From: Deltaproteobacteria bacterium | GTDB taxonomy: Bacteria; Myxococcota; JACPTQ01 | Direction: 5' to 3' | DNA: 64,000 nt | Assembly (NCBI GenBank): GCA_016192705.1 | Contig: JACPTQ010000049.1 | Coordinates: forward strand, 1-64,000 | Shown here: positions 1,489 to 30,137 of the stretch, piece after piece | Position numbering within the stretch: the stretch's first letter is position 1 | Layout: every line of letters starts with the position of its first letter | Position numbers and translations under genes: made by a program | Notes under the pieces: generated by a model | Told to the model about the DNA's origin: nothing | Seen by the model: the letters and a program-made list of their open reading frames with translations, nothing else | Database searches by the model: none

Positions 1489-2697
1489 ATGAAACGTGCG
1501 CTGTCCTTGGTTCTGGTATTTCTTGCCGCATGCGATTCGCGCGGGATGGGTGGCGGCTGGAGTGCCGGGTCGCAATCCGCGGCGGAAGGCACAGCCGTGG
1601 CGCGGAAACACGAGAAGGCGATCGTCAAGGCGGCGATTATGGCTGTCGGCCGCCTTGAGGGAACGCCGCTTGTTGCGGGGGTCGAATCGAAGCGTGGGCG
1701 ACGCGCTGTGGTCGATCGCGCGCTTCAGCGGACCGCGACGCTCAAGGCAAAGGATCGCGAACGCGCCATTGCGACGCTGCTCGCAATTCCAGATGACTGG
1801 CCGCGCGCCAAAGAGCGGCGACAGCGACTTCGCGGAATCATTGTTGCCATCGCGCAAAGCGACTTCGCAAAGAAACGGTTCGACGCCTTTGAGAGTCGCT
1901 GCAAGGAGGCCGAGTCGATCGCCGGGTCAAAAAAGGTCGCGTGGTGTGCGCTCGCCCGAAAGCGCCTTGCTGAGCGCATGGACAAAGCGCGCTTCAATGA
2001 CGCTCTCGCAGTTCTGAAAACAGGCGAGGGGACCGTGTTTGTCGATGTAGCGTCGCGCGTCGAGGGGAAGGCGCGCGTCGCGGCGCTATGGGCGAAGGCG
2101 CTTCGTTTTGCGAAGGCGATCGAAGAGACGGCGCCCGAGACTGCGTTCGCGATTGCGCGCGGCTATCCGCCTCACTTAAAGGACGCCCTACGCGCAAAGA
2201 AACTCGCCGAGCGTCTGCGCCCACTCGTCAAAGCAGCGCCAGCACCGACTCAGCTCGCGACCGTGTCGCCGCTTTCACCTGCGCCCGATCCCGTTTCCGC
2301 AACCGCTCCCGATCCCGTTTCCGCAACCGCTCCCGCTGCCGCTCCTGCTCCGGCTACCAAACCCGCAAAACCTGTTCGCGCGAACCTGCTCGCAAGCCCC
2401 ATTGCGCAAACGTTCGTCATTGCTGGTTTCGCCACGATTTCAATGGGCGCCGCCCTCCTTGTTCGCCGCACACGCGCGCGCCGTGCCGCTGCAAGACTCG
2501 CCGAGGAAGAAGTGTTCACCGTTCGCTCTTTCGCGCTCGCCACGAACCACGCGCGCTGCCTCATCTGCGGCCGTGCCTTCGACCTCAACGCACGCCCCGT
2601 CAACTGCGCGCGCTGCGGAACGCCGCATCACATCGAGTGCTGGCAATACAACCGCGTCTGCGCAATCTATGCCTGCGACTCGCGCAAAGCTGCGTGA
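1489..2697 (+). CDS. Membrane-anchored lipoprotein with C-terminal prokaryotic RING finger
   Basis: The ATG at 1489 has GGAGGA 8 nt upstream and opens a lipoprotein signal (LAAC lipobox, Cys15). Asp at +2 is the inner-membrane retention signal in enterobacteria. The 402-residue product then has a helical Lys/Arg/Ala-rich region (about 30-250), a Pro/Ala linker with a duplicated PDPVSATA unit, a transmembrane segment (about 305-330), and a cysteine-rich end: C357, C360, C373, C376, H380/H381, C384, C391, C396. That spacing, with the PHHxxCW core, resembles the Prok-RING family. Members of that family are often membrane-tethered, and some are proposed to act in ubiquitin-like or protein-quality pathways. 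The predicted topology puts the RING in the cytoplasm. The substrate is unknown. The gene has its own operator/promoter shared with the FHA gene. Confidence 0.75.
   Translation: MKRALSLVLVFLAACDSRGMGGGWSAGSQSAAEGTAVARKHEKAIVKAAIMAVGRLEGTPLVAGVESKRGRRAVVDRALQRTATLKAKDRERAIATLLAIPDDWPRAKERRQRLRGIIVAIAQSDFAKKRFDAFESRCKEAESIAGSKKVAWCALARKRLAERMDKARFNDALAVLKTGEGTVFVDVASRVEGKARVAALWAKALRFAKAIEETAPETAFAIARGYPPHLKDALRAKKLAERLRPLVKAAPAPTQLATVSPLSPAPDPVSATAPDPVSATAPAAAPAPATKPAKPVRANLLASPIAQTFVIAGFATISMGAALLVRRTRARRAAARLAEEEVFTVRSFALATNHARCLICGRAFDLNARPVNCARCGTPHHIECWQYNRVCAIYACDSRKAA
2284..2331 (+). repeat. Perfect 24-bp tandem duplication in the RING lipoprotein linker
   Basis: Positions 2284-2307 and 2308-2331 are identical 24-mers encoding PDPVSATA twice, followed by more CCGCTCCCG-like units. 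The Pro/Ala linker seems to grow by slippage. Similar Ala/Pro or Gly/Ser microsatellites occur near 48361-48430, 55787-55850 and 62902-63042. Confidence 0.85.
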
Positions 2698-2716
2698 ATT
2701 GGTGGTCGCGTCCTCG

Positions 2717-2749
2717 CTGACCTGATCTGTCAGTCGCGCCCGTTAGTAT
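2717..2749 (+). promoter_or_regulatory. Palindromic operator plus -10 element, site 2
   Basis: CTGACCTGATCTGTCAG lies at 2717-2733, followed after 10 nt by TAGTAT (2744-2749). The flanking bases also match site 1 (GTCAGT, then CGC, then CGTTAG). It precedes the FHA gene, whose TTG start is 23 nt after the hexamer. The WYL regulator follows the FHA gene by 3 nt, so this site probably drives both. Confidence 0.78.
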
Positions 2750-2772
2750 CGCGCCAGAAGGAGGGCCAGAAC

Positions 2773-3756
2773 TTGAGCACTAGTCGTGAAACAACAGCCG
2801 CCATCCCGACCGATTGCCTCGACGAGAAAACCGAGAAACCGCCCGCCGCTCCACTCCTGGAGGTCGACGGCTTCTCTTTCTTCTCGCAGATTCATCGGCC
2901 GGTTCTCGATTCGATCCGCGATCGCAACGAGGAGGGCATCCAAATCGCGGCCACCCGCGAAGACGTGACCTCTTATTATCCGCGCTTCAGGCAGGCTTCG
3001 GCGTCACCCGAGTTTCTCACCATCGGCACGAGCAACCGATGCGACCTTCAGCTACCTGACGGTGACCCCGGCATTTCGGCACGACACCTGCTTGCGCGGT
3101 ACACCGCGAACGACTTGCGCGACGACGCCGTCTCGCTATTCCTTCTCCACGAAGGGGCCGCTCGAAATGGGTCGGCTTCCGAGAATCGCTCATTCCTTCA
3201 CGCACACAGCCGGCGGTTCGCGATCCGCACGTCCCAGACAGAAATCCTCTTCTTGCCGGTCCGGCGTCGAGCCTGGCGAACATCTGCGGCCGACACTTGG
3301 GAGAAATTGAAGTGCGGCTGCTTGTACTTGAAGGGCCGCTGCCGGAGCTGCACGAAAATGGTGGCCGGCAACGAGCTTACTCGCGGGCTCGTTCCCGTGG
3401 ATGCGCTCGCGTGGCCATCGGCGAACGCGGGAATCGCGGCGGTGCTTAGGCTTAGCGGGGGCAATGGTGGCGTCTCTCGCGTCGTCGGAGTCCCATCGGA
3501 CGCCGACGGAGTCGTAATTGGTCGGCGTTCGCTCGCAGCGATGGGCTACGACCTCCCGTCGATTTCAGAGCCGCACCTTGCGATCGTCCGAGACGGGGCG
3601 GCGGCGAAGGCACGCTATTATGCTGTCGATCTGGCGTCCCAGAACGGGTCGCTCATCAACGGGTGGGGATTCGACCAGGCGCCGCTCGACGCGAACGCAC
3701 GAATTGAGCTTGGCGAATCGATCGAATTGACTTGGGAACAGAGCACATCGTCGTGA
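2773..3756 (+). CDS. Double FHA-domain protein with central zinc-binding motif
   Basis: The TTG start at 2773 is supported by AAGGAGGG about 7 nt upstream; the product has 327 residues. The C-terminal FHA domain (about 236-322) keeps the canonical residues: GRRS at 250-253, H268 in the SxxH position, and NG at 291-292. FHA domains bind phosphothreonine peptides. An N-terminal region (80-160) looks like a second, degenerate FHA domain (GTSN at 85-88, SARH at 102-105). Between them C181, C183, C190 and C193 form a likely zinc knuckle. There is no signal peptide, so it should be a cytoplasmic adaptor. It shares its promoter motif with the RING lipoprotein and lies 3 nt before the WYL regulator. 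No kinase is visible nearby. Confidence 0.8.
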   Translation: MSTSRETTAAIPTDCLDEKTEKPPAAPLLEVDGFSFFSQIHRPVLDSIRDRNEEGIQIAATREDVTSYYPRFRQASASPEFLTIGTSNRCDLQLPDGDPGISARHLLARYTANDLRDDAVSLFLLHEGAARNGSASENRSFLHAHSRRFAIRTSQTEILFLPVRRRAWRTSAADTWEKLKCGCLYLKGRCRSCTKMVAGNELTRGLVPVDALAWPSANAGIAAVLRLSGGNGGVSRVVGVPSDADGVVIGRRSLAAMGYDLPSISEPHLAIVRDGAAAKARYYAVDLASQNGSLINGWGFDQAPLDANARIELGESIELTWEQSTSS

Positions 3757-3759
3757 GGT

Positions 3760-4824
3760 GTGCCGCGTAGAGGAGGTGCCCGAAAAACAGATTGCGGAGC
3801 TCAGGAATTTGCGCTTCGCAGCGTCAGATCGGAAAATTGGCGCGTGGCACGCGAAGCACAACTGACGCGAACGTGGCAACTCATCACGAGCCTCGACCAC
3901 CATCAGAACGGCCTAACTGTCGAGGAGCTTCGTGACGAGCTGCGCGTCACGGAGCGAACGGTGTACCGGGACCTCGCCGCGCTTCAAGAAGCCGGCTTCC
4001 CGATTTTCAGTGACGCGGGCTCAGGGGTCGCCCGAAGGCGGTTTGTCGAGGGGTATCGGTTCGTCAAGGCGCTGCCGCTCAACGTCAAAGAAGCCGCGGC
4101 ACTCGCGCTTGCGGGGGACCTCGTCGGGAGCTTTCATGGGACCTTTTTCGCCGACGCGATGAAATCGGCGTTCGAAAAAGTTCGCGGAACGCTGTCGCCC
4201 GAGGCGCTCGATTACGCGCGGAGCGCGGTGGGAATCCTTGGTGTCAGCGCGACGAAGCGGCACAATTACGAGAAGAAGGCGGCGATCCTTGCGACACTGC
4301 ACGAGGCGACGCGCCTGCGGCGACAGGTCGAAATCGTCTACGAGTCGTTTTCGTCGAACCGCGTGGCCAGGCGAATCGTCGACCCGTATACGCTGCACCT
4401 TCATGGCGGAACGATTTACCTGATTGCTTACTGTCACCGGCGGCGCGATGTGCGGCAGTTCGTGGTTGACCGAGTTCGAAGCGCGAAGACGCTGACCGAA
4501 ACATTCGAGGTTCAAGAGGGCTACGACCCAGAGCGCCACCTCGCATCGGCGTTCAAGATGTTTCGCGGAAAGCCTTTCGTGGCGCGGATTTGCTTCGAGC
4601 GCCGCGCGGCGCGCTACCTCCGCGAGCGGACGTATCACCCATCGCAAACGATTCGTGACTTGAAGGGCGGCGCGATCGAAGTCACGCTCGAAGTTTCCGG
4701 CGTCGACCAACTCGCGGCCTGGGTCGCCTCGTTCGGCGGCGACGCGACCGTCCTCGAGCCCGACAAGCTTCGCCGCGCCGTCGTTCGGCGCGCGAAGGGG
4801 ACGCTGGGGCGATATGGCAGATAA
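3760..4824 (+). CDS. WYL-domain transcriptional regulator (HTH-WYL-WCX)
   Basis: The domain order is a winged helix-turn-helix (about 36-84, DeoR/HTH_11 type), a WYL domain (about 188-245, with the usual Tyr-Leu-Ile-Ala and Val-Asp-Arg strands) and a C-terminal WCX extension (about 270-342). WYL regulators sense nucleic acids or nucleotides and often control phage-defence or DNA-damage genes; the BREX regulator BrxR has this architecture. The frame opens at GTG 3760, but GTG 3844 (Val29) just before the HTH is an alternative, and the SD-like AGAGGAGG at 3769-3776 lies inside the longer version. It follows the FHA gene by 3 nt and is convergent with the helicase. It is the obvious candidate to bind the CTGAC-N7-GTCAG sites, including the one driving its own operon (inference). 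Confidence 0.88.
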   Translation: MPRRGGARKTDCGAQEFALRSVRSENWRVAREAQLTRTWQLITSLDHHQNGLTVEELRDELRVTERTVYRDLAALQEAGFPIFSDAGSGVARRRFVEGYRFVKALPLNVKEAAALALAGDLVGSFHGTFFADAMKSAFEKVRGTLSPEALDYARSAVGILGVSATKRHNYEKKAAILATLHEATRLRRQVEIVYESFSSNRVARRIVDPYTLHLHGGTIYLIAYCHRRRDVRQFVVDRVRSAKTLTETFEVQEGYDPERHLASAFKMFRGKPFVARICFERRAARYLRERTYHPSQTIRDLKGGAIEVTLEVSGVDQLAAWVASFGGDATVLEPDKLRRAVVRRAKGTLGRYGR

Positions 4825-4849: not shown

Positions 4850-7108
4850 TCATGCGGTCGTTGCTGATGGACCGCTCAAATCCACCTCATCGCGCACAAA
4901 CCTCCATGAGCGAATCTCAAAAAAACGTTCTGCGAACAGTCGCCGTAAGGCAGAGACCTTTGCCGAGTCAACGAAATGGGTGCGGTCTGCAATGACGACG
5001 AGCTTTGACTTGGCGCGACTCATCGCAACGTTAACCAACCGGTCGCCTGTTTCACCGCTAAAGAGGCGACCAACCTTTGTTCCGTCACATTCAACGAGAT
5101 CAATCACGACGACGTCGAATTCGCTCCCCTGAAATGCGTGAACAGTCCCGATTGAAACACGGCGTTCGGATTCAGCCCCAGCGGGTTGCGACACGAGGTC
5201 CTGGAGGAGAAGGCGAAGACGTGCGACGTGTGCGCGATACGGCGCAATGACGCCAATCCGAGCGGTCTTGTTCAAGCGACAATAGGCTCGCGTGAGATTC
5301 GCTGAAAACTGCGCTGTTCCGGCGTTAACCCGAGAACCACCGGCTGTCATCAGCACCCCAGATCCAGGCATGCCTCCTACGTCGATGAGCACCGCAGCCT
5401 TTCCAGAACCGGGTGGCAAATCGACCGCCCTGCGACGCTCAGGATCGCCCATGTTCACATCTGATTTTAGGCGCCCGCCGTAAAAGACGCTGTTCACGCA
5501 GGCGGCGATTTCGGGGGCCATGCGCCTTTGATGGACGAGCATCGCGTAGTCGGAGCGCTCCGATGGGCCAGCCAACTCAGAAGAGAAGCCTCGATAAAAG
5601 AATGCATCGCGATGCAGCCATCGCGCGGCAAGTTCCCCCTGCGAAATGGCAATTGGACCGAGCTGCTTGAAGTCCCCCGCGAGAATGAGGCCTCGAGACG
5701 CACAGGTCGAAACAGCCACGGCGCTCGCAGCAGAGACCATGCTGCTTTCGTCGACGACCGCGATGTCGAACTGGCCATTCGCGATGCCGCTGTCGCTCAC
5801 GGCCTGAGCGATGGTCGTAAACACGACTCGAGACTTTTGGAGATAGCACGAGACAACGTCTTTCAGCAGTCTTTCGAGAGTCGCGATTCGGCTGTTGACT
5901 TCTGCGCGAGACGAAGCATCACTTCGCGGCAATCGATCGCGCTCGATCCGCTTTTGCTTTAGCTCACCGAGGATTCCCTGCCTTTCGGCACGATACCGAA
6001 ACAACCCGGGGTATGCGAACACATCGGGATCCCTGGGATACCCGTAACGGACAACCAACCCCTCCTGAAGAAGCCCCTCCAGCACGGCGCGAGCAGAGCG
6101 CTCGAACGCCTTTACCGTCGCGACCGCGAGTCGATCCACGGCAACGTTGGCGGTTGCGACACCGATCACTCGCAACCCCGAGGTGACGAGTGTGGCGATA
6201 ACCCGCCCGAGCGTATGAGTCTTTCCCGTTCCGGGCGGTCCCCAGATCACAAAGGCCGCGGGCTGCTGATGCATCCGAAGTACCGCTGCGGATTGAGCGT
6301 CATCGAGGTCAATCAATACGGGTTCTGATGAGATTGGTAGCGCCGGCGCCGAGGCGCTGCGCTCGACAATCGCTTTCGCCAGAAACGAAGTCGACGGGTC
6401 GATCCGTGCGATCGCGTCTCGGAGACGTTCAAGCAGCCAGTCGTGATTAGGCTCGAGCGCAATGGGCCTCTCGAACGCGATACTCAAGTCGAGCCGTTTC
6501 TTACAGGCGACCCATACTGTATTGTCAGCTTCATCTATGCTCACCACGATGGCGTCGAACGACGCGTTGGACGTTGTCCTCAGCAGCGCCGGCGCGCCTT
6601 CGGTGACAGGTACGGGCTCGTCGGTGTCGCGCTCGCTTAACATGAATTCGAAAACAAACGGATACTCATCGGCACTCAGCTGCTTTCGAAGTCGCCCGCC
6701 CAAGATTGGAAGCCTCAGCTTCTTGCTCTGATCGCGCACGGCCCGGCGTTCCAACGATATGGCCTCGCACATCTCTTTCAGCTGGTCTGCGAGGGTACCG
6801 GAAGCCGGATGAGTGGCTTCCGGGCCCAGTGACAGGCGTCGCTCTGGGTCTTCAAGTTTCGCCATCAGCTCAGGAAAATCGCGGTTGATGGTGTGCCACT
6901 GGGGTTTCCATTTGTGTAAACCACACCTCACGAAATACCTTGGATTAGCGGAGATCATGCTCCCCACCCGGCTCGCCCGTGATCCCGTACCGGCTCCCAT
7001 AACGACGAATGCGATTTGCGTGAAGGTCAGAGGCACGCAGCGGTCGCTCCTCTGGTACCACATCTTCAGGATGGATATGAGGAGGTCGGAATCAGTCATC
7101 ATCGTCAT
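4850..7108 (-). CDS. Superfamily 1 (UPF1/Dna2-like) DNA/RNA helicase
   Basis: The 752-residue frame has complete SF1 motifs: Walker A GPPGTGKT (290-297), DESS (453-456), GDFKQLGP (478-485), HQRRM (about 526-530), VHAFQGSEFD, and a final VAMSRAKSKLVVI block. Residues 25-80 look like a winged helix with a basic patch. Such AAA_11/AAA_12 helicases translocate on single strands and are frequent partners of defence islands. The gene lies 171 nt after brxL on the same strand but has its own operator/promoter at 7142-7110, so it need not be a BREX subunit. The start is uncertain: the -10 hexamer ends at 7110, so ATG 7108 would be upstream of the transcription start. ATG 7102 or 7099 (leaderless), ATG 7063, or GTG 7036 behind AGAGGAG are better fits. 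Confidence 0.88.
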   Translation of the reverse strand: MTMMTDSDLLISILKMWYQRSDRCVPLTFTQIAFVVMGAGTGSRASRVGSMISANPRYFVRCGLHKWKPQWHTINRDFPELMAKLEDPERRLSLGPEATHPASGTLADQLKEMCEAISLERRAVRDQSKKLRLPILGGRLRKQLSADEYPFVFEFMLSERDTDEPVPVTEGAPALLRTTSNASFDAIVVSIDEADNTVWVACKKRLDLSIAFERPIALEPNHDWLLERLRDAIARIDPSTSFLAKAIVERSASAPALPISSEPVLIDLDDAQSAAVLRMHQQPAAFVIWGPPGTGKTHTLGRVIATLVTSGLRVIGVATANVAVDRLAVATVKAFERSARAVLEGLLQEGLVVRYGYPRDPDVFAYPGLFRYRAERQGILGELKQKRIERDRLPRSDASSRAEVNSRIATLERLLKDVVSCYLQKSRVVFTTIAQAVSDSGIANGQFDIAVVDESSMVSAASAVAVSTCASRGLILAGDFKQLGPIAISQGELAARWLHRDAFFYRGFSSELAGPSERSDYAMLVHQRRMAPEIAACVNSVFYGGRLKSDVNMGDPERRRAVDLPPGSGKAAVLIDVGGMPGSGVLMTAGGSRVNAGTAQFSANLTRAYCRLNKTARIGVIAPYRAHVARLRLLLQDLVSQPAGAESERRVSIGTVHAFQGSEFDVVVIDLVECDGTKVGRLFSGETGDRLVNVAMSRAKSKLVVIADRTHFVDSAKVSALRRLFAERFFEIRSWRFVRDEVDLSGPSATTA

Positions 7109-7109: not shown

Positions 7110-7142
7110 CAGATACACCCGGGACCTGACAGAACAGGTCAG
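7110..7142 (-). promoter_or_regulatory. Palindromic operator plus -10 element, site 3
   Basis: Read on the minus strand, CTGACCTGTTCTGTCAG (7142-7126) is followed after 10 nt by TATCTG (7115-7110). The asymmetric interior (CCT on the left, TCT on the right) points the same way relative to the gene as at sites 1 and 2. It sits directly in front of the helicase gene and uncouples it from the BREX operon. Confidence 0.75.
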
Positions 7143-7279: not shown

Positions 7280-9325
7280 TCAAGCGCCGCCGACAACTTT
7301 CATGGCGGCTGTTTTCGGGTCCCCATAGAAGATTGGGTCCACGTGCTCCATGATGTCGGCGCTCACGTCGAGGAAGTTCCGCTTGTTCTCGATCGGGATG
7401 AGGGCGCGTTTAGCACCGTTGTCCATTGCGACTTGGAGCGGCTCCGTGAGCGAGCGGATCGGCTTGATGTTCCCCTGGACGCTCATGTCTCCGAGGATGA
7501 GCAGACCGGGGCTGACGGATGCCTTTCTCAACGCGGAGTAGCTGGCAACGAAGAATGCCACGCCAGGCTCGGCCTCAACGCGGTTTGCGAGCAGGTCAAT
7601 AACCTCGACGTGAAGGTCGGAAACATCGAGGTCGCGCGCGATGCCGAGGTCCGTCTTCTTGGCGTGCAGGAAGCTGAAGGCTCGCTGGAGGGATTCCTTC
7701 ATCACACCGGCGACGCCGCCGGCCAGCTTGAGTTTGCCCGTGCCGTTCGAGACTGAGATTTCCACGCGGAAGAGACCGACGGTGCCGTCCGACGTCACGC
7801 CCGCACTGTAAACCGTACCGGGGGAGATCGGATCGGTCGAGATGAGATCGCGCCCGCCCTGCTCGGGGACGCCGACGAATCTCTCCTCTCCGGTTTCCTG
7901 AAGCGTGTAGCTGAACGACGTGTGATAGTACTCAAATGAGCCCATTTTCTTGAGTTGTTCCTTCACGCGCCTTCGCCCTTCGAGTGCAAGCTCAAGGATC
8001 TCGCCGAGTTCATTCGGCGTGACGACCCCATGCGGGAACAGGATTTTCACGAGGCCCGACACCGTCTTGCGGACGGCCTTGCGGTCGCGGGCGTTGAGGT
8101 GCGCGCCAAGCGAGAAGTGGCGATCGATGGTCTCAGTGAAGTTGTGCTTCCGCATTTCGCGAAGCGCCTCGGCGAGGTAGTCGACGACGAACCCGTAGTG
8201 GTTCGTGAAAAGGTCGTTCCGCATCTTCGGGATCTCCCAGCCCGGGAGGTAGAAGTGTATTCGGTCGATAAAGGCCATGTCGTCGCGGATGATGTCCGGC
8301 ATCGGCGCGAACAGGTGTCCCGTCTGAACCATCACGTCGACGGGCTGGTTCGTGTTGCCGAACATCGCGATGCTCGCGTCGCCAGAAACCGCCTCCTGGC
8401 CACGCTGGAAGGTGCCGGATTCGCAGTAGGTTTTCATAGTCGTGATGACCTCCTTGGGCATTTTCTGAAGGTCGGCGACTTCGTCGAATCCGACGACGTC
8501 CCAGATTTGAACCATGCCCTTCTGCCGGCCGGACAAGTGGCCGAAAAGGTTCGCGACCGTCGTGCCGCCCGTGAGCAGCGCTGAGTACGGCGACACTTCC
8601 TGCACCACGTAGCTCTTGCCCGTGCCGCGAGGGCCAAGCTCGACGAGGTTGTAGTTGTGCTCGGCGAGCGGGATAAGGCGCACCAGAAAGAGGAGCTTGA
8701 GGCGCCGCGACATGTCGCCCGGCTCGTACCCCATGCTTCGCATGATGAGGTCGAGCCACTCGTCCGTCGTGAGCTCGCCCCGGACGCGACGGTACTCTTC
8801 GAGGTCGAACGTCGCGATCTGGATGGGCGTGAGCTTGTCGATCCAGAAAGGATTCTTTCCACCGGCCTCTTCGTCGGACTGGAATCGCAGATCGAGCTGG
8901 GTCCACACGCCGCCCATGAGCAGGCGCTCGTAGTCGCGCACGTACTGCGTTGGAACGTGGAGAAACTTGTTTCCGAAGTTTACCGCCTCGGCCCAGTAGT
9001 CGGAGTCGACCAGGCGGACCTTCACCTTGTCGATGAACGTGTACCTCCCGTTCTCCTTGACCTTGCTCTGCGCCTTCCCCGACTCGTCGGGTCGGATGTA
9101 ATTGTTGGCGAGCGTGTCGTTGACGACCTGCAACCCCATCTGGATCGCCACCTCATCAGACGACGCGCAGTACTTTCCGAGCAGATACTCGAGCACGAAG
9201 ACAGGGACGTTCGCACCGACCTTCACCTTGCGGACGAGATCCTTGCGAACGACCTTCCCCGCGAAGAGGCGGTTGACCTTGTCGTCGAGTGCGTCGCGTA
9301 TCGGGGTTCCGTTGCTCATGTTCAT
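7280..9325 (-). CDS. brxL: BREX protein BrxL, Lon-like AAA+ protein
   Basis: BrxL is the AAA+/Lon-related DNA-binding motor of type 1 BREX systems. The 681-residue product shows the BrxL N-terminus, Walker A GPRGTGKS at 231-238 and a Walker B region with FDEVADL. It ends in a degenerate Lon protease-like domain (GDMSVQG, GAKRALIPIENK). The ATG at 9325 overlaps the pglZ stop by one base (TGATG); a second ATG lies at 9319. A frame extending further upstream is only overlap with pglZ. It is the last gene of the BREX operon before the separately promoted helicase. Confidence 0.95.
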   Translation of the reverse strand: MNMSNGTPIRDALDDKVNRLFAGKVVRKDLVRKVKVGANVPVFVLEYLLGKYCASSDEVAIQMGLQVVNDTLANNYIRPDESGKAQSKVKENGRYTFIDKVKVRLVDSDYWAEAVNFGNKFLHVPTQYVRDYERLLMGGVWTQLDLRFQSDEEAGGKNPFWIDKLTPIQIATFDLEEYRRVRGELTTDEWLDLIMRSMGYEPGDMSRRLKLLFLVRLIPLAEHNYNLVELGPRGTGKSYVVQEVSPYSALLTGGTTVANLFGHLSGRQKGMVQIWDVVGFDEVADLQKMPKEVITTMKTYCESGTFQRGQEAVSGDASIAMFGNTNQPVDVMVQTGHLFAPMPDIIRDDMAFIDRIHFYLPGWEIPKMRNDLFTNHYGFVVDYLAEALREMRKHNFTETIDRHFSLGAHLNARDRKAVRKTVSGLVKILFPHGVVTPNELGEILELALEGRRRVKEQLKKMGSFEYYHTSFSYTLQETGEERFVGVPEQGGRDLISTDPISPGTVYSAGVTSDGTVGLFRVEISVSNGTGKLKLAGGVAGVMKESLQRAFSFLHAKKTDLGIARDLDVSDLHVEVIDLLANRVEAEPGVAFFVASYSALRKASVSPGLLILGDMSVQGNIKPIRSLTEPLQVAMDNGAKRALIPIENKRNFLDVSADIMEHVDPIFYGDPKTAAMKVVGGA

Positions 9326-11919
9326 CACACTCCAAGTCGTACCGGGATGTCCGCCGGCGATCGATACAGCTCTGCGTCCGTTGCCGGGTCCTGCACCACG
9401 ACACGGAGCGCCGGCCCGCTCTCGTCGCTCAAGAGAAACGCGACCGTCGTGGGCTTCCCGGGCTGCAGCATTACGCACCCCGTCGCGCGATCGAGCTCGG
9501 CCTCGATCGCCATCCCTACGCTGCCCACCTGCCTGCCTGATGCGGTGAGCAGCGGGCGCACGAGCAGCCCGCCAACAGACGTGCTTCCGAGATTGATTTG
9601 CTCTGTGAATGTAAGCGAGACGCTGAAGATACGGTTGGAAACCACGTTGGGAAGGCCGCTTACGGTAACCGGACCAGATGCGAGCTGAACCCCCCTCTCA
9701 GCCCTCAAGCGAACGGTCAGTACCGGAACAATTGCCTCCTGCAGCGACAGCCCACCGTGGTGGAATGCGAGGTCTCCGCCGGCCTTGAAGACACCGCTGC
9801 CAATGGGGAAAACAAACTCGAGATTCGACGCATAGCCCAGCGTCGATGCTTCCACTCTAATGCATCCAGCCGGAGTGGTCCCACCGCGGCCAATCCAGCA
9901 CCGACGGTGAAGCTCGACCTCGTGCCCGCCGGGTTTCTCGATCCGCATCGACTCGTCGCGATCGGCGGGGAAGAACAGATGGCCGTGATCCGCGGAGACG
10001 ACCGAGTGCTCAACGCCAGCCGCTGCGAGTCTCCGGATAGCGCGCGCGAGGTTGTCGATCACGGTGTCCATCACCTGGCGGGCCTGATGGGAAAACCCGG
10101 TCTCGCCGGCGTGATCGATTTCCTGCGACTTGACGACGATGACCTGCGCGCCCTCGATCTTCCTCGCGAGTTTCGACGCCTGTAGGCTGAGGAGTTCGTC
10201 GAGGCCGACGTGGCTGAGCTTAGGGACCTTCGCAGAAGCGAACTTCTTTCGTGCCGATGAGTCCGGAAGGAATGCATCTTCAATGCGCGCGCCGAGTACG
10301 CCATCCTGCTCCACGACGCTGAAACTCGCGGACGCTCCCGGCTGTAAAGCCGCCATTCCAACTGTTGTGATGCTCGGCAGCGCGCAGATGGCGTGCCGCG
10401 TACTGACCTCGGCGCTCTTCGGCAAGCGCTCGGCCAACTCTACGCCCATTTCGAATCGCATAGCGTCAACCAGGAAGTACGCGAGGGGCTTCGGGCGGTC
10501 TGCAACTGCCTCCCTATAGACGCAAGTCTGGTGCAGCACTCCAGGAGTGGCCCACTTGGCCTTCGCGAGAGCACGAGTGAAGCCCTCTGCCATCGCATGG
10601 CACGCGTCTTCGTACGCTCGGCGGACGACACCAAGGGGGCGCTCCTCCGGTTCTTCCTCAAGCTTCGTGATCAGGACTTCGAGCCGCCGCTGCAATTGGT
10701 CGATCCGATACCAACCGTCCTTCGACGCGTACGCATCGATCCACGATACGGGGCCATTGCCGATCTTCGCCATCGCGGCGCGAACTGCGACTATTGCGCC
10801 GCCAAGTTCGGCCATCCGGCGGCACGTTTCCCATTGCGCCTTCCGCCCGACATCGTGGTCCAGCCAGAAGCTGTTCTCGCGTTCGGTGACGATTGCCAGC
10901 GCCTCGTCGAACCCCTGCTCGGCGATGAGCGCTCCGCAATGGGAGAGGAGCGCGCGCTCCTCAAAACGGAAAGTGTCGATCGAGCCGAGCGCGTCGGCTG
11001 CTATCGGCGCATTCCGAAGCCCGAGCTCCTTCTCGACATGGTCCGCCAGGTTCGGGTAGGCGCTCGCGAAGCTCGTTCGGAGACGACGGGCCAACTCTCG
11101 GACGGCGCTTTCATTGTCCTTCGTCTTCGGCGCGGGCACGGCGGCAACGCTCGGAGGAGGGGGGCAGCGCAGGTCCGTCCGGAACTCGCCCGCGAGGACA
11201 TAGCGCAAGGTGATAGCCCGCACCTTCGAGATCGACGCATTCTCGGGAAGCTCCGCACCGAGGCGCGAGCGAATCAGCTTGATGAGCTCGCGCGTCGCCG
11301 CCTTGGTTTCGATGGCGGCGTCGCGGGAGTCACTGGCAAGCCACGCACCGAGGAGCCCATCGTTGCCGGCGGTGTCGTGGAAGACGGACTTCAAGATCGA
11401 CGGCGGCTCCGTCGATGTCGTGTCAGCTGCAGCACGAGCAAGGTCCTCGTAAGACACCTTACGGTCGACCGGCAGCATTTCGTCGACAACCCCCAGCGTG
11501 TACTTCTGGAGGAGTACGTTCTTAGCCAACCGCTTGAGTTGGGGCTCCCAGGTCGTGCCGGCCTTCTCGATCTCCATGAGCACGGAGCCGCGCCGATCGC
11601 GTTCACGGCCTGGGATGAAAAGTAGAGTTGGTTCGGGGGAATCGGCAGCGGCAACCATCTCCACCGCGGTCCGCACTTCGAAAAACGACCCCGAAAACTC
11701 GGCGATCCAGAACGCCTTCCCCGCCGCCTCAACTTCCGTAAGGCCGACTGAAATCCGCGCGTCGTCTTGTGCTGCCAGCTTTCGACTCCGTTCCGTTGCC
11801 TCAAGCTCGCCGATGAACGCCTCAAACTCCCGCCTCGGGTCGTACCAAACAACGATCTTGTTCGCCTTCAACTTATCGGAGAGCTGCTTAGCGACGTAAT
11901 CGTGGAGGGGATGCGTCAT
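9325..11919 (-). CDS. pglZ: BREX protein PglZ, alkaline phosphatase-fold
   Basis: PglZ is the signature BREX protein, with an alkaline-phosphatase superfamily domain of unknown substrate. The 864-residue product carries the metal-site motifs LVDAMRFEMG and VSADHGHL in its C-terminal half, and an N-terminal segment (KIVVWYDPRREFE) typical of the family. The true start is ATG 11919, overlapping the stop of the upstream RelA/SpoT-like gene by 4 nt (ATGA). The frame extends 16 codons further, but those have no support. It overlaps brxL by 1 nt. The tight coupling on both sides makes it part of one polycistronic unit. Confidence 0.95.
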   Translation of the reverse strand: MTHPLHDYVAKQLSDKLKANKIVVWYDPRREFEAFIGELEATERSRKLAAQDDARISVGLTEVEAAGKAFWIAEFSGSFFEVRTAVEMVAAADSPEPTLLFIPGRERDRRGSVLMEIEKAGTTWEPQLKRLAKNVLLQKYTLGVVDEMLPVDRKVSYEDLARAAADTTSTEPPSILKSVFHDTAGNDGLLGAWLASDSRDAAIETKAATRELIKLIRSRLGAELPENASISKVRAITLRYVLAGEFRTDLRCPPPPSVAAVPAPKTKDNESAVRELARRLRTSFASAYPNLADHVEKELGLRNAPIAADALGSIDTFRFEERALLSHCGALIAEQGFDEALAIVTERENSFWLDHDVGRKAQWETCRRMAELGGAIVAVRAAMAKIGNGPVSWIDAYASKDGWYRIDQLQRRLEVLITKLEEEPEERPLGVVRRAYEDACHAMAEGFTRALAKAKWATPGVLHQTCVYREAVADRPKPLAYFLVDAMRFEMGVELAERLPKSAEVSTRHAICALPSITTVGMAALQPGASASFSVVEQDGVLGARIEDAFLPDSSARKKFASAKVPKLSHVGLDELLSLQASKLARKIEGAQVIVVKSQEIDHAGETGFSHQARQVMDTVIDNLARAIRRLAAAGVEHSVVSADHGHLFFPADRDESMRIEKPGGHEVELHRRCWIGRGGTTPAGCIRVEASTLGYASNLEFVFPIGSGVFKAGGDLAFHHGGLSLQEAIVPVLTVRLRAERGVQLASGPVTVSGLPNVVSNRIFSVSLTFTEQINLGSTSVGGLLVRPLLTASGRQVGSVGMAIEAELDRATGCVMLQPGKPTTVAFLLSDESGPALRVVVQDPATDAELYRSPADIPVRLGV

Positions 11920-12986
11920 GAAGTTCCCATGCTGTTGGCAAGCTCCAGGTATCGTGCGGCAATCCACGCTATTCTGGGGGGGCCGCCAATTCCACGCCCC
12001 GTTGGATGGTTGTCTACGATCTGTTGGGCAAGCTTAGGAAGAAGAGACGCCAGCAAGAGATCAGAAGATGTCGGGTCCAGGGTGTATCGGTCATGGCCTG
12101 CTGCAACAAGTTTCTCCGACAAGATAGCTAGCGCTTGCTGCGCGCGCGCGTCGACGTCTCTTGCCTCTCCAACCAATTCTTCGACCTGCTGTGGGGTGGT
12201 GATTCCTAATTGTTGAAGCTCGTCGAAACACTGCCCAGCATGGTTGGTCAGCTCCACACTTGGAAACCACTTGCGCAATCGGGCTACGAAATCGTAGACG
12301 TCCTCGAAAGCCCCCGTCTGCTCCCTTAATCGCCGTTCCGTAGCGGCAAGCAATTGACTGATGATGCCATCGCCTGTGCGACTGAGGTGGCCCAGCGACC
12401 CAAGGAGTTCTTGCTCTGGTTCCGAGAGCCTTCCGCTCAGCGGTTTGTAACCGAGATCATGTTCTATTTCGTTCCACACATGGGACATCATGCTGCAGAC
12501 TTGGACTTCGCAAGGAGTGTTGGCAAGATTCGCGTACGTACCAACCAGTTCGTCGGGCCGCAAATACACCTCGGAGTGGGCCGCACGGTAGAAACTGCCC
12601 GGATTTGCCGCATGCTTGTCCTTGCGATCAACATCAACACCTCCGCCAGCGTTGCCGCAGAAACGTTTCATGATCTCTTGGACCACCTTCACTTCGTCGT
12701 TCTTGTCATACGTTGCCACCCGAACGGCAGCCAGGTCGCGAACAGCATTGAACACTGACTCGACGGTTTTAATGAACCCCGGCGTCGCTTTCTCGATCAA
12801 ACGAATCTTGCCGTCGAAGCTCTTGGAACTTTTGGCACGCGAGGTGACCTGTGCGCGAATCGCGTTTCCTTCCACCACTTCTGAACGACAGATGTCCGCA
12901 ACGCGGGCGCTGAGTTTCAAATACCGGTCATACTCACGTTCATATCTAGAGACGGCCTCGGCAATTATCGTATCTAAGTTCGGCAT
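11916..12986 (-). CDS. RelA/SpoT-type alarmone synthetase-like protein inside the BREX operon
   Basis: The product has 356 residues. The N-terminal ~190 contain a RelA/SpoT synthetase domain with its catalytic signature: RxKxxxS at R50/K52/S56, Asp84 in RDLAAVRV, the G-loop Tyr133 and His137 (YRAAHSEV), Glu160 in EVQVC, and WNEIEHDLGYK at 171-181. Family members transfer pyrophosphate from ATP to GDP/GTP, and some toxic relatives (toxSAS, CapRel) modify ATP or tRNA. The Arg usually found after EIQI is Cys164 here. There is no HD hydrolase domain; residues 200-356 are an unrecognised helical extension. The gene starts 3 nt after pglX and overlaps pglZ by 4 nt, so it is cotranslated with BREX. 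A role in abortive defence or as a BREX effector is inference. Confidence 0.88.
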   Translation of the reverse strand: MPNLDTIIAEAVSRYEREYDRYLKLSARVADICRSEVVEGNAIRAQVTSRAKSSKSFDGKIRLIEKATPGFIKTVESVFNAVRDLAAVRVATYDKNDEVKVVQEIMKRFCGNAGGGVDVDRKDKHAANPGSFYRAAHSEVYLRPDELVGTYANLANTPCEVQVCSMMSHVWNEIEHDLGYKPLSGRLSEPEQELLGSLGHLSRTGDGIISQLLAATERRLREQTGAFEDVYDFVARLRKWFPSVELTNHAGQCFDELQQLGITTPQQVEELVGEARDVDARAQQALAILSEKLVAAGHDRYTLDPTSSDLLLASLLPKLAQQIVDNHPTGRGIGGPPRIAWIAARYLELANSMGTS

Positions 12987-12989
12987 TTC

Positions 12990-15062
12990 TTACGCCTCCG
13001 CGTCTAACGGTCGTCGACGAGAGCCGGCCTTTTTCGCGAGACGTCCAACCTCCGTTTGGAGGATGCTCGCGAGTGCTGCTTTTACGCCGGGTGAGCTGCG
13101 CTCCCGGACCAGCTCGTTGATCGACCGCATTGGTGTTTTGCGAGCCGTCCACTTTCCGTTGCTGTCCTCGGCCCAGAACACGTCTTCCAGTCCGTGCGCG
13201 ATCGCAAGACTGCGATCTGAAGCGCACCTAGGAACGACGCGCTCGGGCCAGAGGTGCATCGCCAGGTGCGCCCAGTCGTACTTGCCTTCGCAGAGCGCGT
13301 TCCAGGTGGACTTCAGCGCCTTCTGCCAGGGCTTGTTCTGCGGGACGAGCCGCCAGAGCGGCGCGAAGTTGATGATGACGCCGTCGTCCAAGGTCGGCTT
13401 CCAAAGCGGCGCGACGCGCTTCACCTCGTCGAGGAAGGCGCGGAGCTCGTCGACGAACGTCTCCTGTGCAGCGAGAACCTTCCGCTGGGCGGCGGTCGCG
13501 CCGTCACGTAGCTCGCTCATGAGCGACTCGAGGCGGCGCTCCTCGTGCGCGAGCTTCGGTGCTGCGTAGTCGTTCTGCACGCGGAAGAGCGTGTCTTTGC
13601 TGAAGGCGTGGATGTAGAGCCACACCGAGTAGCTCGCCGAGGGCGTCGCAAGCTGCCAGTAGATGGGCGCCTTGCGACGGCTCTTCGAGTACATCCTGAT
13701 ATGCAGTGGGAAGAACTCCCTGGCCAGCCACCCACGGAGGTTCTCAGGCGCCTCGACGCGAACGCGCTCGGCGACCGCGCGGGTGCGCGCCGCGAGATCG
13801 GCGGCGTGGCCTTGGTCGTCGACGAGGATGTCGGGCCGTTCCGCCGGCTCTTCGCCCTCGGGGTACATGCCCGGAGAGCGCAAAGGCAACGCCTGGAAGG
13901 GCTCGGGCTCGAGTGGCACCGGACGCTCGCCCGTCGCGAGGCGGGGGTCGAACCGTGCGAAGGCGGCGCCGACGAGCCACGAACCTAGAGTCTCGACCCC
14001 AGCGCCACTCGACACCCCCGACACGTCATCATCACCCAAGTCATCGCCGTCATCGTTGTCTTCATCCGGTGAGGACTCCTCCCTCTCAGCAGGCGCATCT
14101 CCAGTGGAGACAAGGCTTGCAGGGTCCTCCGGGCGGATGCCGTACAGACTGAACCCCGCCTGGTCGATTTCCCTCTGAAGCGTCTCCAACTCGCGAACGA
14201 TGGCGTCAGGATTCAGTCCCGCGACCTTCTCATTCAATCCGCTCGGCAGAATGAACGCATGCGAGGTCTCATTGACCGTGTCGAGCATTCGCCTGAGCGA
14301 CCAGGCACGGCGCGCGAGACGTGCGAACGTCGCAACGTCGCTCGTCGAAAGGTTCGCCAGCGGTGTCTTCTGAATGACGCCCACTTCGTAGGAGCGGGCA
14401 ACCCCTCCGCGGCCAGACGGCTCGGCGGCAGCGAGTTGAAACTCGATGAGCGACCGAAACACTTGACTGTTGGCAAGGGCTCCAAGGGCGAGCAAAAGCT
14501 CAACGTCGTCGTTCTCGACGATAACTGCAGGTCCCTTCGAGCCGAAGATGCAACCGGCCGGCATCACGCGCATCGAAAGGTCGCTCTTGGTCCGAAGCGT
14601 CCAGGTGAGGCCAGGGCGAAGGTAGAGCTCCCGGCTCGGAACAATCGCAAACTTGTACTCTCGAGTGGTAACTCGCTCAGCGAGCAACTCGCTCCCGTCA
14701 GTACCCCAGTTGAGAAGCATATGCGGGTCTGCGTAGAACGGTGACCACCGACCGCCCTTCACGTGCGGTGCCCATTTGCTACCCGCACATTCCCACGCCA
14801 GTCGCAGGAAACGGCCGTCGTCATTGGAGTTGACGCCTCGTTTCGCAACGCGACCGCCTGCTTCGAATCGAGAGAACTTGGCGAAGGCTGCCCGAAGAGT
14901 CTCGCTCACCCAGTAGGCGAACGGAGAACCGGGCACGCTGCGAAACGTCGTCGGATTCACTTCGAAGATTCGGCGATCGGCTCCTGCAGCACTAATCGCA
15001 GCGCGGAGCGCACCATCCTTGTCGTGCACCTCTTCGAGGACGCGGATGAACACCGTGCTCAC
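12990..15062 (-). CDS. pglX: BREX PglX, C-terminal half (specificity/regulatory part)
   Basis: These 690 residues correspond to the C-terminal half of ordinary ~1200-residue PglX: a region with SPFAYWVSETLR, SYEVGVIQKTPL, an LYGIRPED segment, and the long C-terminal domain with YWQLATPSASYSVWLY. They contain no methyltransferase catalytic motif. The GTG start at 15062 overlaps the stop of the N-terminal half (GTGA), the classic arrangement for translational coupling. So PglX is either a true two-subunit enzyme or was split by a single-base shift at the domain boundary. An acidic low-complexity linker lies around residues 325-350. Confidence 0.88.
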   Translation of the reverse strand: MSTVFIRVLEEVHDKDGALRAAISAAGADRRIFEVNPTTFRSVPGSPFAYWVSETLRAAFAKFSRFEAGGRVAKRGVNSNDDGRFLRLAWECAGSKWAPHVKGGRWSPFYADPHMLLNWGTDGSELLAERVTTREYKFAIVPSRELYLRPGLTWTLRTKSDLSMRVMPAGCIFGSKGPAVIVENDDVELLLALGALANSQVFRSLIEFQLAAAEPSGRGGVARSYEVGVIQKTPLANLSTSDVATFARLARRAWSLRRMLDTVNETSHAFILPSGLNEKVAGLNPDAIVRELETLQREIDQAGFSLYGIRPEDPASLVSTGDAPAEREESSPDEDNDDGDDLGDDDVSGVSSGAGVETLGSWLVGAAFARFDPRLATGERPVPLEPEPFQALPLRSPGMYPEGEEPAERPDILVDDQGHAADLAARTRAVAERVRVEAPENLRGWLAREFFPLHIRMYSKSRRKAPIYWQLATPSASYSVWLYIHAFSKDTLFRVQNDYAAPKLAHEERRLESLMSELRDGATAAQRKVLAAQETFVDELRAFLDEVKRVAPLWKPTLDDGVIINFAPLWRLVPQNKPWQKALKSTWNALCEGKYDWAHLAMHLWPERVVPRCASDRSLAIAHGLEDVFWAEDSNGKWTARKTPMRSINELVRERSSPGVKAALASILQTEVGRLAKKAGSRRRPLDAEA

Positions 15063-16897
15063 GGTCGCACTCCTTCGGCCTTCTGCAGGCAGTACGCAGC
15101 CGCCTCGACGACGGCTGTGTCCATCACACCGAGTCCGAGGTCGGCTACAACAACGGGAGGCGCGTCTTGCAGGATGACTTCCTCACGCCAGCGCTGGAAC
15201 CGTGGCAAATAGAAGCCAGTTCGCGAGGTGATTGCGCCGACTCGCCCACCCGTCTTCAGTAGCTCAATGCCACGCTCTACGAATGCAGCGTAGATGTCAT
15301 TCTTGGAGCGCGGGTATGCCTTCTCGAAGTCCACCTTCGCGCGCGCACTTCCAGCACCGAACGGAGGATTCATCAGCACGACATCAAAGGTCTTCTCAGA
15401 GACACCTAGCAGGGCGATGCCGTGCGTCGCGTCGTCGGCGAAGAGTCGCCGTCGCGTACTTGCGCGTGAGCCCTCGTCGCTCACGAAACGTGCGAGCGCC
15501 GCACGGATTCGCTCCTCGGGTGGAGCGAAGAGGTCGCCAGTCTGGCCCCGCTTGCCTTGGCGCGCGACGAGTTGCTCAACGCGCAGGAGCAGCCCCATGT
15601 CGCCCGCAAGATTCAGAGAGCCTACGAGCGAGCTGAACACGCGCCCGAGCTCGGTGTCGCCGAGCTTCGCCACGAACTCCTTGGCGATCTGGTCATCGGC
15701 GACGAGCGGCTCGGCGACGACGATATTCGAACGACGGATGTGTGGTCGATCCGCGCGTCCGACGTTGAACTCCCTGTACGCCTTCTGCGCGCGCATCCAC
15801 AGGGCGAGCTGGGCGATCTGCGCGCAGCGCGGGTCGATGTCCACGCCATGGAGGTTGTGCGCGAGCACGAGCCCTGGGACGGCACTCCGCAGCGCGTCGA
15901 GGCTCGGGTAGTCCTCGGCGAGCGTCTTGCCCGTCGCTTCGCTCGTCGGGCTCTCCGGGTCGGCATGTGCCTCCTCGTAGATCGCGAGGAGCAGGTCGAA
16001 CGCATACAGGAGGAAGTGGCCGCTGCCGCACGCCGGGTCGAGCACGCGCAGATCACGCGGATCCTTCTTCGCGCGCGGCGCAAACTCCTCGCCGGGCTTG
16101 CGGACCATGTACTCGCAGCGCTCGGCAAGCACCGTCTTCGTGCCGCGCATCTCGTACCAGATGCGCCCGAGCGTGTTATCCGTGAGAAACCGCACGACGT
16201 AGCGAGGCGTGAAGAACTGGTTGCGAACAGCCAGCTCGCGACCGTTGCGCGGAACCTGGCTCTCCTCGCGCATCTTTTTGCGCTCGTCCTGACCGTTAAA
16301 GAACTGGTAGACCCAGCCGATCGTCTCGTCCTCGCCCCACACGCGGGCGAGCTCGGTGCCGTTCAGGATCTCGAGGAGCTGCTCGAAGGTGGCGCGTTTC
16401 GGCCAGAGCACGCTCGACGGATCGCGGCGGTCGAAGAGGACCTTCACCTCGGTTGACATCTCGTCGAAGAGCGACTCGATGTAGAGCCGGTAGCACGCAC
16501 TCTCGGGCAGGAGCGGCAGGCCCGGAGCCATGCCGCAGAACTCGCGGTAGCCCGCTGACTGCTCGCCCTTGGTGATGCACTCCTGCACGAGCTCGCGGGC
16601 CTCGAGCATCTTCAGCGCCACGAAGCGGTTGAGCGTGGTGAACGCGGCGTCGCGCAGGTAGTCCGCGACTGAATCCGCAGCGTTCATCCCGGCGGCGCGC
16701 TTGTGCTCGATGGCCGCGACGATGCGCTCACGCTGGAAGGCCTGACGGGGCGAGAGGTGGCCTCCGGCCCTCGCGGCCACCGCGCCGTGATGGTGCACGT
16801 CGAAGTCGCCCTCGAGCTGCGCGGCGAAGTCCTCCTCGAGGAGCTTCCGCGCTCGCTGGGTGGCGCGTTCGATGGCGTTGCGTGTGTCCTTGTCCAT
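15059..16897 (-). CDS. pglX: BREX PglX, N-terminal half: adenine-specific DNA methyltransferase
   Basis: This is the catalytic half of PglX, which methylates one adenine in a non-palindromic site so that host DNA is recognised as self. The 612 residues include the SAM-binding motif DPACGSGHF (287-295) and the catalytic NPPF (510-513). They end soon after the MTase core, at a segment (VADLGLGVMDTAVVEAAAYC) that normally continues into the C-terminal half. The start ATG at 16897 is 13 nt after the brxC stop. Confidence 0.92.
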   Translation of the reverse strand: MDKDTRNAIERATQRARKLLEEDFAAQLEGDFDVHHHGAVAARAGGHLSPRQAFQRERIVAAIEHKRAAGMNAADSVADYLRDAAFTTLNRFVALKMLEARELVQECITKGEQSAGYREFCGMAPGLPLLPESACYRLYIESLFDEMSTEVKVLFDRRDPSSVLWPKRATFEQLLEILNGTELARVWGEDETIGWVYQFFNGQDERKKMREESQVPRNGRELAVRNQFFTPRYVVRFLTDNTLGRIWYEMRGTKTVLAERCEYMVRKPGEEFAPRAKKDPRDLRVLDPACGSGHFLLYAFDLLLAIYEEAHADPESPTSEATGKTLAEDYPSLDALRSAVPGLVLAHNLHGVDIDPRCAQIAQLALWMRAQKAYREFNVGRADRPHIRRSNIVVAEPLVADDQIAKEFVAKLGDTELGRVFSSLVGSLNLAGDMGLLLRVEQLVARQGKRGQTGDLFAPPEERIRAALARFVSDEGSRASTRRRLFADDATHGIALLGVSEKTFDVVLMNPPFGAGSARAKVDFEKAYPRSKNDIYAAFVERGIELLKTGGRVGAITSRTGFYLPRFQRWREEVILQDAPPVVVADLGLGVMDTAVVEAAAYCLQKAEGVRP

Positions 16898-16910
16898 TCG
16901 CGCCTAGCCC

Positions 16911-19900: not shown

Positions 19901-20355
19901 CGTCCTCGAAACGCTGGAGCTGTCCCTTCTCTTCGAGCGCGATTTCGAGCTCGGAGAGGTCGAGGTCCTTCGCGTAGCCGAGGCTTTGGAGAAAGAGTCC
20001 GTACATGATCTCGGTGAGCGTCTGATTCCCGCTGCGGATACCGCGATCCGTGGAGACGTCGAAGATTCGCGATCGAAAGCCCGAGCATCTTGGCGAAGCT
20101 CGACTTGCCGGATCCGAAGAACCCCGAGACCCAGATCGCGATCCCCTCGTGCGGTTTGTTCGGGGTCTCACCATAAGCTTCGAAGATGTTCGTGTAGTGG
20201 GACCGAATCGCATCGGTGACCACGTACTCGCTGATCTCGTCGCGGAGGATCTCCTCGTCGGTCTGGTCGACCTTGATGACTTCTTCGATCCGTCGATGGA
20301 TGTCGTTCGCGAAGAGGGCTTTGATGTGCTGTGTGGTCATGGCTGGTGTCCCCAT
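16911..20355 (-). pseudogene. brxC: BREX ATPase BrxC, disrupted by a frameshift with internal deletion
   Basis: BrxC is the large P-loop ATPase of BREX. The start is ATG 20355, overlapping the brxB stop, or ATG 20340. The first ~95 codons are in one frame and include the Walker A stretch GFFGSGKSSFAKML (78-91). Between about 20079 and 20066 the reading continues only in another frame, beginning IFDVSTDRGIRSG, and runs ~1050 codons to 16911 with the Walker B-like LLFVVDEVGQF. In the family as I remember it, about 45-50 residues separate these two segments, so a deletion that is not a multiple of three seems to have occurred. Together the parts give ~1146 residues against ~1200 expected. An assembly or sequencing error is the alternative. 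If real, BREX would be defective unless suppressed. Confidence 0.85.
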
Positions 20356-20930
20356 CAGAAGATCTTCGGGCGGTAGTTGTGCTCCGGATCGAGCGCGCCC
20401 ATGAAGCGAAGGCCCGCAGCTCCATCGAGGTCGCCCGGATAGAAAAGAATTGTGGGCACGTGGACCTGCCCCTTGAGCTGCTCGAGGAGCGAGAAGGTTC
20501 GATAGACGGGAAAGAGCGCTCCCGCCCGCAGAACGAACACGACGTCTCGGAGTGGATCGGGATCGTCCGGCATCCTCGCCGCAACGAGCTCAACGAGCGG
20601 TTTGTACTCGGAGAGCACCGAGTGGACAGTCTCGACGATGATCTCCACGCCTTGCTCGTGCTCAGCGGTGAACCAGTCCTCGAGCGGCCGCTGTGAACGC
20701 ATCGCTTCGTCGAGACACTCAGCGAGCGAAATCCGTCGGATGCGCTTGCCCTTCTGAGTCAGCCGCGTTTCGAGCATCGTGACCTGCTTGCGAAGCTCGA
20801 ACTCCTCCTCGGGGTCGTAGCGGAACAGCGCGTACGGCATGTCGTGGTACGCGCTGATTCGCTTGCGCGGGTCGGCCAGCTCGAGCACAGGCTCGAGGAC
20901 GTTCTTGATGCGCAGTTCGAGGTCGCTCAA
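20355..20930 (-). CDS. brxB: BREX protein BrxB (DUF1788)
   Basis: This 191-residue protein matches BrxB by size, by position between brxA and brxC, and by an N-terminus of the DUF1788 type (RISAYHDMPYALFRYDP). It has a C-terminal strand set (VVFVLRAGALFP, ILFYPGDLDG, LRFMGALDPEHNYRPKIF). BrxB is essential in studied BREX systems but its biochemical role is unknown. Its start overlaps brxA by 4 nt and its stop overlaps brxC. Confidence 0.92.
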   Translation of the reverse strand: MSDLELRIKNVLEPVLELADPRKRISAYHDMPYALFRYDPEEEFELRKQVTMLETRLTQKGKRIRRISLAECLDEAMRSQRPLEDWFTAEHEQGVEIIVETVHSVLSEYKPLVELVAARMPDDPDPLRDVVFVLRAGALFPVYRTFSLLEQLKGQVHVPTILFYPGDLDGAAGLRFMGALDPEHNYRPKIF

Positions 20931-28325: not shown

Positions 28326-28330
28326 TATCT

Positions 28331-29860: not shown

Positions 29861-29891
29861 GGGGCCGAACCTCTTGGCGCCTGCGTCGGCA

Positions 29892-30137
29892 TCAGTGACC
29901 CAGTTCGTCCTCGCGAACGCTGAGTCGTTCGAACACCGTGGATTGCACCTGTAGGTTGCGGGTGCCGTCCTCGACCGGCCCACACGTTATGACCATCTGA
30001 AAGTCTCCAGCACGCACGAGCTGCATAAGGATCAAAGCGATTTCGTTTATCGCCGGAGGCAGCACGTCGTAATCACTCGCCTCCAGGAAAATTCCGTTCC
30101 GTGGTTTCGTCTTGGGTCCTCCGCGTTCAGCGTCCAT
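29892..30137 (-). CDS. Small hypothetical protein
   Basis: 81 residues from ATG 30137, overlapping the excisionase-like gene by 11 nt and ending 31 nt before the primase. It is predicted alpha/beta with no known motif. Its position in the element's replication operon is the only clue. Confidence 0.55.
   Translation of the reverse strand: MDAERGGPKTKPRNGIFLEASDYDVLPPAINEIALILMQLVRAGDFQMVITCGPVEDGTRNLQVQSTVFERLSVREDELGH

Follow-up and report, generated by a model that had tools for sequence, protein, structure and literature searches.

What joins a gene for a RING-finger lipoprotein to the neighbouring gene for a double-FHA protein, and what might a bacterium use the two for? A preliminary description of the locus had presented them as a pair sharing a promoter design and a WYL regulator, and had guessed at a signalling or protein-tagging role, switched on together with a helicase during phage attack or DNA damage. 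The two genes were followed up within the window, by which we mean the whole stretch of 64 kb that was analysed (contig C57:1-64000), and across the genome and phylum to which it belongs.

Profile search bore out both identities. The RING gene (1489-2697, + strand) encodes a protein of 402 aa with a lipobox, a helical periplasmic part, a Pro/Ala linker, one transmembrane segment and a C-terminal C4HC3 finger, which matches Prok-RING_1 (PF14446) at residues 354-396 (E 2.7e-8; 34 bits against a curated cut-off of 29.1). The lipobox-like sequence is LAAC15, and the single hydrophobic segment, from about residue 307, is followed by RRTRARR; the RING finger is therefore predicted, from this topology, to be cytoplasmic. 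Fold prediction, made from an alignment of four rows only, gave three strands and a pLDDT of 50-67 over the finger. The double-FHA gene (2773-3756, + strand; TTG start, 327 aa) matches Pfam FHA over two stretches (E 5.7e-11), with CxC-x6-CxxC between the FHA domains. The second FHA domain retains GR, SxxH and NG, which we take to be the phosphothreonine-pocket motif, and the first has GT for GR.

Both genes are real, but the unit is not the two-gene pair that had been supposed. They are two members of a five-gene cassette, in the order Y (divergent), X, RING, FHA and WYL, and DNA comparison revealed that the entire unit is repeated in diverged copies. We count at least four copies in this genome and possibly up to six, as two loci are split over contigs (C13/C72 and C78/C57) and these presumed joins are uncertain; the ends of C13 and C72 share an overlap of 184 bases, 4 of them mismatched. 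When the genome to which the window belongs was searched at the protein level, the FHA gene turned up at four full loci and as one fragment. Protein identity between copies was 94-95% for WYL, 90-91% for FHA, 84-86% for X, 78-79% for RING and 75-81% for Y. In every pair, dN/dS was 0.06-0.26 for all five genes, indicating purifying selection, and synonymous divergence between copies was 0.19-0.75. A recent assembly duplication was rejected as their origin on the strength of that divergence.

Y and X are predicted lipoproteins, the N-termini of Y, X and RING having been recognised by eye as lipobox-like. In the window, the contig break cuts X at base 1, so that its start is lost and only the C-terminal part is left (1-1020, + strand). 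Complete copies of X, in L027, L028 and L030, are 490-495 aa long and carry an LFAC/LGAC lipobox. The protein is predicted to be all-beta and has no Pfam match, and its AlphaFold model has a pLDDT of 38. A 136-aa ORF (1028-1438, + strand; no Pfam match) lies between X and RING in this copy only, outside the common cassette; DNA homology to the other copies ends near 1043 and restarts near 1415-1428, around this ORF. The ORFs were called by a custom script, with which small genes may be missed.

The common promoter design that had been proposed was recovered, and it extends well beyond the pair. Y, X, RING and FHA-WYL each have before them a dyad, CTGACC-N5-TGTCAG, followed at a fixed distance by a -10 box. 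Exact copies of CTGACCTNNTCTGTCAG lie at 1435+, 2717+ and 7126-; at up to 3 mismatches the 64 kb window holds four matches, against 0.84 expected, and none of 100 shuffles reached four. The first site (1435-1451) precedes the RING gene, with a -10-like TAGAGT at 1462-1467, and the second (2717-2733) precedes FHA-WYL, with TAGTAT at 2744-2749. The third (7126-7142, - strand) is situated between brxL and a helicase gene, at the helicase start, in agreement with the suggested co-control of a helicase. Across the 5.2 Mb genome, 22 sites were found at up to 2 mismatches, compared with 1 for the reversed pattern, and 19 of the 22 fell within cassette loci. Besides the BREX-side helicase, the dyad precedes a second RING gene in C63 and stands about 0.3 kb before a DruE-like operon in C72. 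The RING-FHA pair makes up half of a larger module whose presence, repetition and operator are well supported.

The -10 hexamer, NAnnnT, takes the same offset in 19 of 20 promoters; none of the other 24 offsets tested had it in more than 4 of 20. These promoters, which include one added site with 3 mismatches, are paralogous and fall into seven classes, and in six of the seven the offset holds in all members. Left out of the set were the sites at window position 27130 and at L028:5829, neither of which precedes a cassette-linked gene, and those in C8 and C47. At 17 bp, the RING promoter has CCTACT, which agrees with a -35 element at 2 of 6 positions and is thus no -35 match. The ATG start codon of the second RING gene is placed six bases past its -10, which suggests a leaderless transcript. 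The arrangement TGTCAGT-N9-TAGNNT resembles what we take to be the PafBC promoter consensus. Such constancy of spacing would also suit a promoter for an alternative sigma factor, in which dyad and -10 together are read by the sigma factor and no WYL operator is involved. We think this very improbable, because dyad symmetry suits a dimeric HTH protein, a WYL gene is present in every copy whose end is sequenced, and the sites are scarce outside cassettes. We infer that the dyad is a WYL site.

The WYL gene itself lies within the unit, as had been claimed (3844-4824, + strand), and encodes a PafBC-like protein with HTH_11, WYL and WCX domains. The nearest solved structures were PafBC (7e-22), DriD (1.5e-6), BrxR (6e-4, partial) and CapW (about 1e-3); no close relation to BrxR was found, given its partial match at 6e-4 against 7e-22 for PafBC. 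In the alignment, five of the six PafB ssDNA-binding residues tested are kept (R181, Y196, R204, R208 and R214, here R177, Y192, R200, R204 and R210). The sixth, PafB R211, is replaced by V207, at a position that is not arginine in any of nine aligned sequences. In the published accounts of PafBC and DriD (PMC11804915, PMC12340889), ssDNA in the WYL domain activates both proteins; PafBC makes contact with a -26 motif, and the DriD sites, which cover a poor -35, keep a constant distance to the -10. By analogy, the cassette WYL protein may likewise be activated by ssDNA.

The protein could also be a repressor of the BrxR/CapW/Sll7009 type, with its promoters blocked until ssDNA or another ligand releases them. 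A WYL regulator from a Synechocystis plasmid gave a 29.8% match to the cassette WYL. We take this protein to be Sll7009, which represses the CRISPR I-D system of Synechocystis; with a repressor among its homologues, the cassette WYL may act with either sign. The dyad is just upstream of the -10, so a bound protein could block polymerase; BrxR is described as binding inverted repeats and repressing, with 48% of its homologues near defence systems (PMC9122601). Against repression, the activators PafBC and DriD score far above BrxR and CapW, the missing -35 match at 17 bp is as in DriD promoters, and the fixed spacing from dyad to -10 is a need of activator promoters. We consider repression a real possibility, if the less likely one, and continue with activation as the preferred reading.

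Does the cassette belong to BREX, which adjoins it in the window? The SF1 helicase gene (4850-7108, - strand; AAA_11/AAA_12), a partial match to MkoA, is the one preceded by its own dyad, and beyond it lies a type 1 BREX system (7280-21712, - strand) with brxL, pglZ, a RelA/SpoT-domain gene, pglX in two ORFs, brxC, brxB and brxA. All six of brxA, brxB, brxC, pglX, pglZ and brxL are present, and the system is complete. The RelA/SpoT-domain gene (11916-12986) sits inside the operon between pglX and pglZ and overlaps pglZ. The two PglX ORFs (12990-16897) overlap by four bases and match separate N- and C-terminal PADLOC models. Past BREX, DUF3987 and primase-polymerase genes (26667-29983) suggest an integrated mobile element.

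The defence setting anticipated in the preliminary description was confirmed for the window copy, and every other copy was found to adjoin a different defence system. The copy in C57 adjoins BREX, that in C3 the HsdM and HsdR of a type I restriction-modification system (HsdS was not identified), that in C63 HmaA, HmaB and HmaC, and that in C72 an array of a DruE-like helicase, a DpdE/DrmD-like helicase and a DrmMI-like methylase. The last three genes are consecutive at L029:2189-14998 and L051:1-3990. This gene set resembles ARMADA as described in PMC12458937. As a control, seven loci elsewhere in this genome were searched with PADLOC at 1e-30, through 53 proteins out of 58 listed ORFs 250 aa or longer, and the only matches were to PD-T4-6, mad6 and a kinase model, with one protein each. 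That the pair is specific to BREX was rejected, as the three other copies adjoin other systems. At up to 2 mismatches, the operator was not found before core BREX, restriction-modification or hmaA genes, only single neighbouring genes having one; any control of the defence systems themselves is therefore conjectural. The module may act in phage attack or DNA damage, and any anti-phage role is presumptive.

The islands bear marks of mobility, and the cassette might be a passenger or selfish part of them, kept by linked genes and not for a role in defence. An integrase is found beside tRNA-Arg in L030, a recombinase beside tRNA-His in L028, and the primase-polymerase gene in the island of the window; a Phd-ParE pair is attached to the cassette end in two copies, C3 and C63, with ParE broken in C63. 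Purifying selection on all five genes after such long divergence argues against a passenger, as does the reach of the operators into neighbouring genes, and we judge this explanation unlikely.

RING and FHA were not found as neighbours outside this genome, which by the criterion set in the preliminary description counts against a conserved pair, although three more pairs occur within it. At 18 loci of high-scoring WYL relatives in other genomes, no RING was found and a distant FHA was found at one; the full promoter pattern was present at none of the 18, and a CTGACN7GTCAG dyad at two (L145 and L154). Nor was WYL or FHA found within about 1.5 kb at 20 RING loci of other genomes. The closest FHA relatives have unrelated gene contexts. 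Searches found no FHA relative in plasmids and, with two to six short query peptides each, no FHA relative in genome contigs or viral contigs, no WYL relative in genome contigs and no RING relative in viral contigs. X has no homologue among 194 further genomes of the phylum, so that independent conservation offers no check on the cassette. Of the 195 genomes, 160, this one included, contain some WYL match at 1e-10. At the loci L142-L159, WYL relatives of the phylum often adjoin CRISPR-Cas genes of types I-G, I-E and I-B. Cas proteins were above cut-off in six of the eight WYL-relative loci tested with Pfam, with I-G type genes in two, Cse1 in one, Cas8b in one and Cas3 in two more. The WYL relatives are therefore often associated with defence themselves, in agreement with earlier work on WYL proteins (PMC4012209).

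What might the RING protein do? The genome has 11 Prok-RING_1 matches. All four cassette copies are above cut-off, and so is the second RING, a short membrane protein of 182 aa (L028:12283-12831, in C63; 5.7e-8) that has its own operator and is encoded just upstream of the Hma genes. Outside the defence islands, Prok-RING_1 matches occur among non-defence genes in C10, C64, C74, C15 and C68 (L135-L139). The C4HC3 pattern of eight zinc ligands was seen in all five cassette-linked RINGs and in all five examined from other genomes; as read, it was not seen in two of the five other RINGs examined from this genome (C15 and C68).

The guess at protein tagging gained ground, through an E1-Ubl-E2-JAB operon in this genome and Prok-RING_1 proteins in related operons of four others, although the cassette RING is only a candidate for such a role. 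The single E2 of the genome (UQ_con, 2.6e-11) is encoded in an operon at C82 with a ThiF-type E1, a ubiquitin-like protein (Ubl; YukD model, 3e-13) and a JAB protease. The complete operon occupies L163:8681-11508 (about G000:C82:70680-73507), and its E2 carries HPN...C and its JAB a JAMM motif. E1, E2 and Ubl are accordingly encoded in the same cell as the cassette RING. Of 195 genomes of the phylum, five have an E2; nine have Prok-RING_1 above cut-off, including all five with the E2, and these five contain all the strongest RING matches. The hypergeometric probability of this co-occurrence is 6e-8 by genomes and 0.004 by genera, the latter being the fairer figure because four of the five E2 genomes are of one genus. 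In the other four E2 genomes, RING and E2 are 1.7-1.8 kb apart on one strand, and the neighbouring proteins match the operon of this genome: Ubl at 46-48% in all four, JAB at 36-37% in three, E1 at 47-48% in two and E2 at 29-30% in two. The C4HC3 pattern is common to these operon RINGs and the cassette RINGs. Co-occurrence, closeness and the common pattern make the cassette RING a reasonable candidate for a membrane-anchored E3, with a putative ligase activity.

The RING could, however, be a zinc-binding domain for structure or protein contact, part of a membrane signalling protein that has nothing to do with Ubl conjugation. In this genome the E1-E2 operon has no RING, and an E2 is absent from 12 of the 17 genomes in which Prok-RING_1 matched. 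The confinement of the strongest RING matches to E2 genomes and the short distance in four of them argue the other way, as do accounts of prokaryotic RINGs as C4HC3 proteins (PMC11354881) and as RING-type E3 parts of complete prokaryotic Ubl systems (PMC7159879). We rate a non-ligase function only slightly below an even chance.

Taking the candidate E3 and the presumed activator together, the module might work as follows. A WYL homodimer bound to the dyad would stand in for a -35 element. Single-stranded DNA from phage replication or DNA damage would fill the WYL domain and RNA polymerase would be recruited, as by PafBC and DriD. Induction would raise Y and X in the envelope, the RING in the membrane, the FHA protein and the regulator's own level, along with a neighbouring helicase or second RING. 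The membrane-anchored RING E3 would take the Ubl supplied by the E1-E2 pair, whose genes lie elsewhere, and transfer it to inner-membrane targets, the FHA protein would tie the module to Ser/Thr kinase signalling, and the whole would prepare the cell, and perhaps the defence system next door, for the infection under way. That a portable cassette Y-X-RING-FHA-WYL heads defence islands in this genome and acts by such a WYL, ssDNA and E3 mechanism is a reading that we hold tentatively, with somewhat more doubt than belief. Several findings count against it: the valine in place of PafB R211, a repressor (Sll7009) among the WYL homologues, core defence genes lacking the operator, an E1-E2 operon that has no operator either and is on a different contig from the cassette, RINGs among non-defence genes at other loci, and weak fold predictions. 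The wider proposal is of a mobile control module coupling immunity to membrane Ubl tagging, in which each island's ssDNA-sensing WYL would switch on a membrane E3, an FHA reader and two envelope lipoproteins, the cell's single E1-E2-Ubl set would act in trans, and any defence system (BREX, type I restriction-modification, Hma or the DruE/DrmD array) might adjoin; this we think rather unlikely in its entirety.

Regulators beside many defence systems and bacterial ubiquitin-like pathways are already known. BrxR/CapW (PMC9122601; see also PMC9122588) is likewise described as a WYL and HTH protein with an inverted-repeat operator, linked to BREX, type I restriction-modification, CRISPR and other systems, whereas the cassette WYL is nearer to PafBC/DriD and is joined to a RING, an FHA protein and two lipoproteins, four times over in a single genome. 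The accounts of PafBC/DriD (PMC11804915, PMC12340889) share with the cassette the HTH-WYL-WCX architecture, most of the ssDNA residues and a site at fixed distance to the -10 with no good -35; unlike these, the cassette WYL is a single gene with a palindromic site, a regulon confined to defence islands and one WYL arginine replaced. Bil, Bub and those Ubl systems that include a prokaryotic RING E3 are reported to have a similar E1, Ubl, E2 and JAB operon and a C4HC3 RING predicted to be an E3 (PMC13373217, PMC11354881, PMC7159879), but the RING genes here are outside the operon, multiplied and mostly membrane-anchored, with five in defence-island cassettes. CapK+CapS is described as a DNA-damage regulator pair that is also upstream of diverse immune operons (PMC13373217); the cassette proteins differ from it, and CapK+CapS as presented there is without envelope or RING components. 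The open-licence PubMed Central literature yielded no repeated cassette in which a WYL regulator is combined with lipoproteins, an FHA protein and a candidate membrane E3. If the proposal is true, a single cell has fitted one and the same control unit to four unrelated defence systems, and bacterial RING proteins would gain a role in immunity that can be tested with a defined E2, Ubl and promoter.
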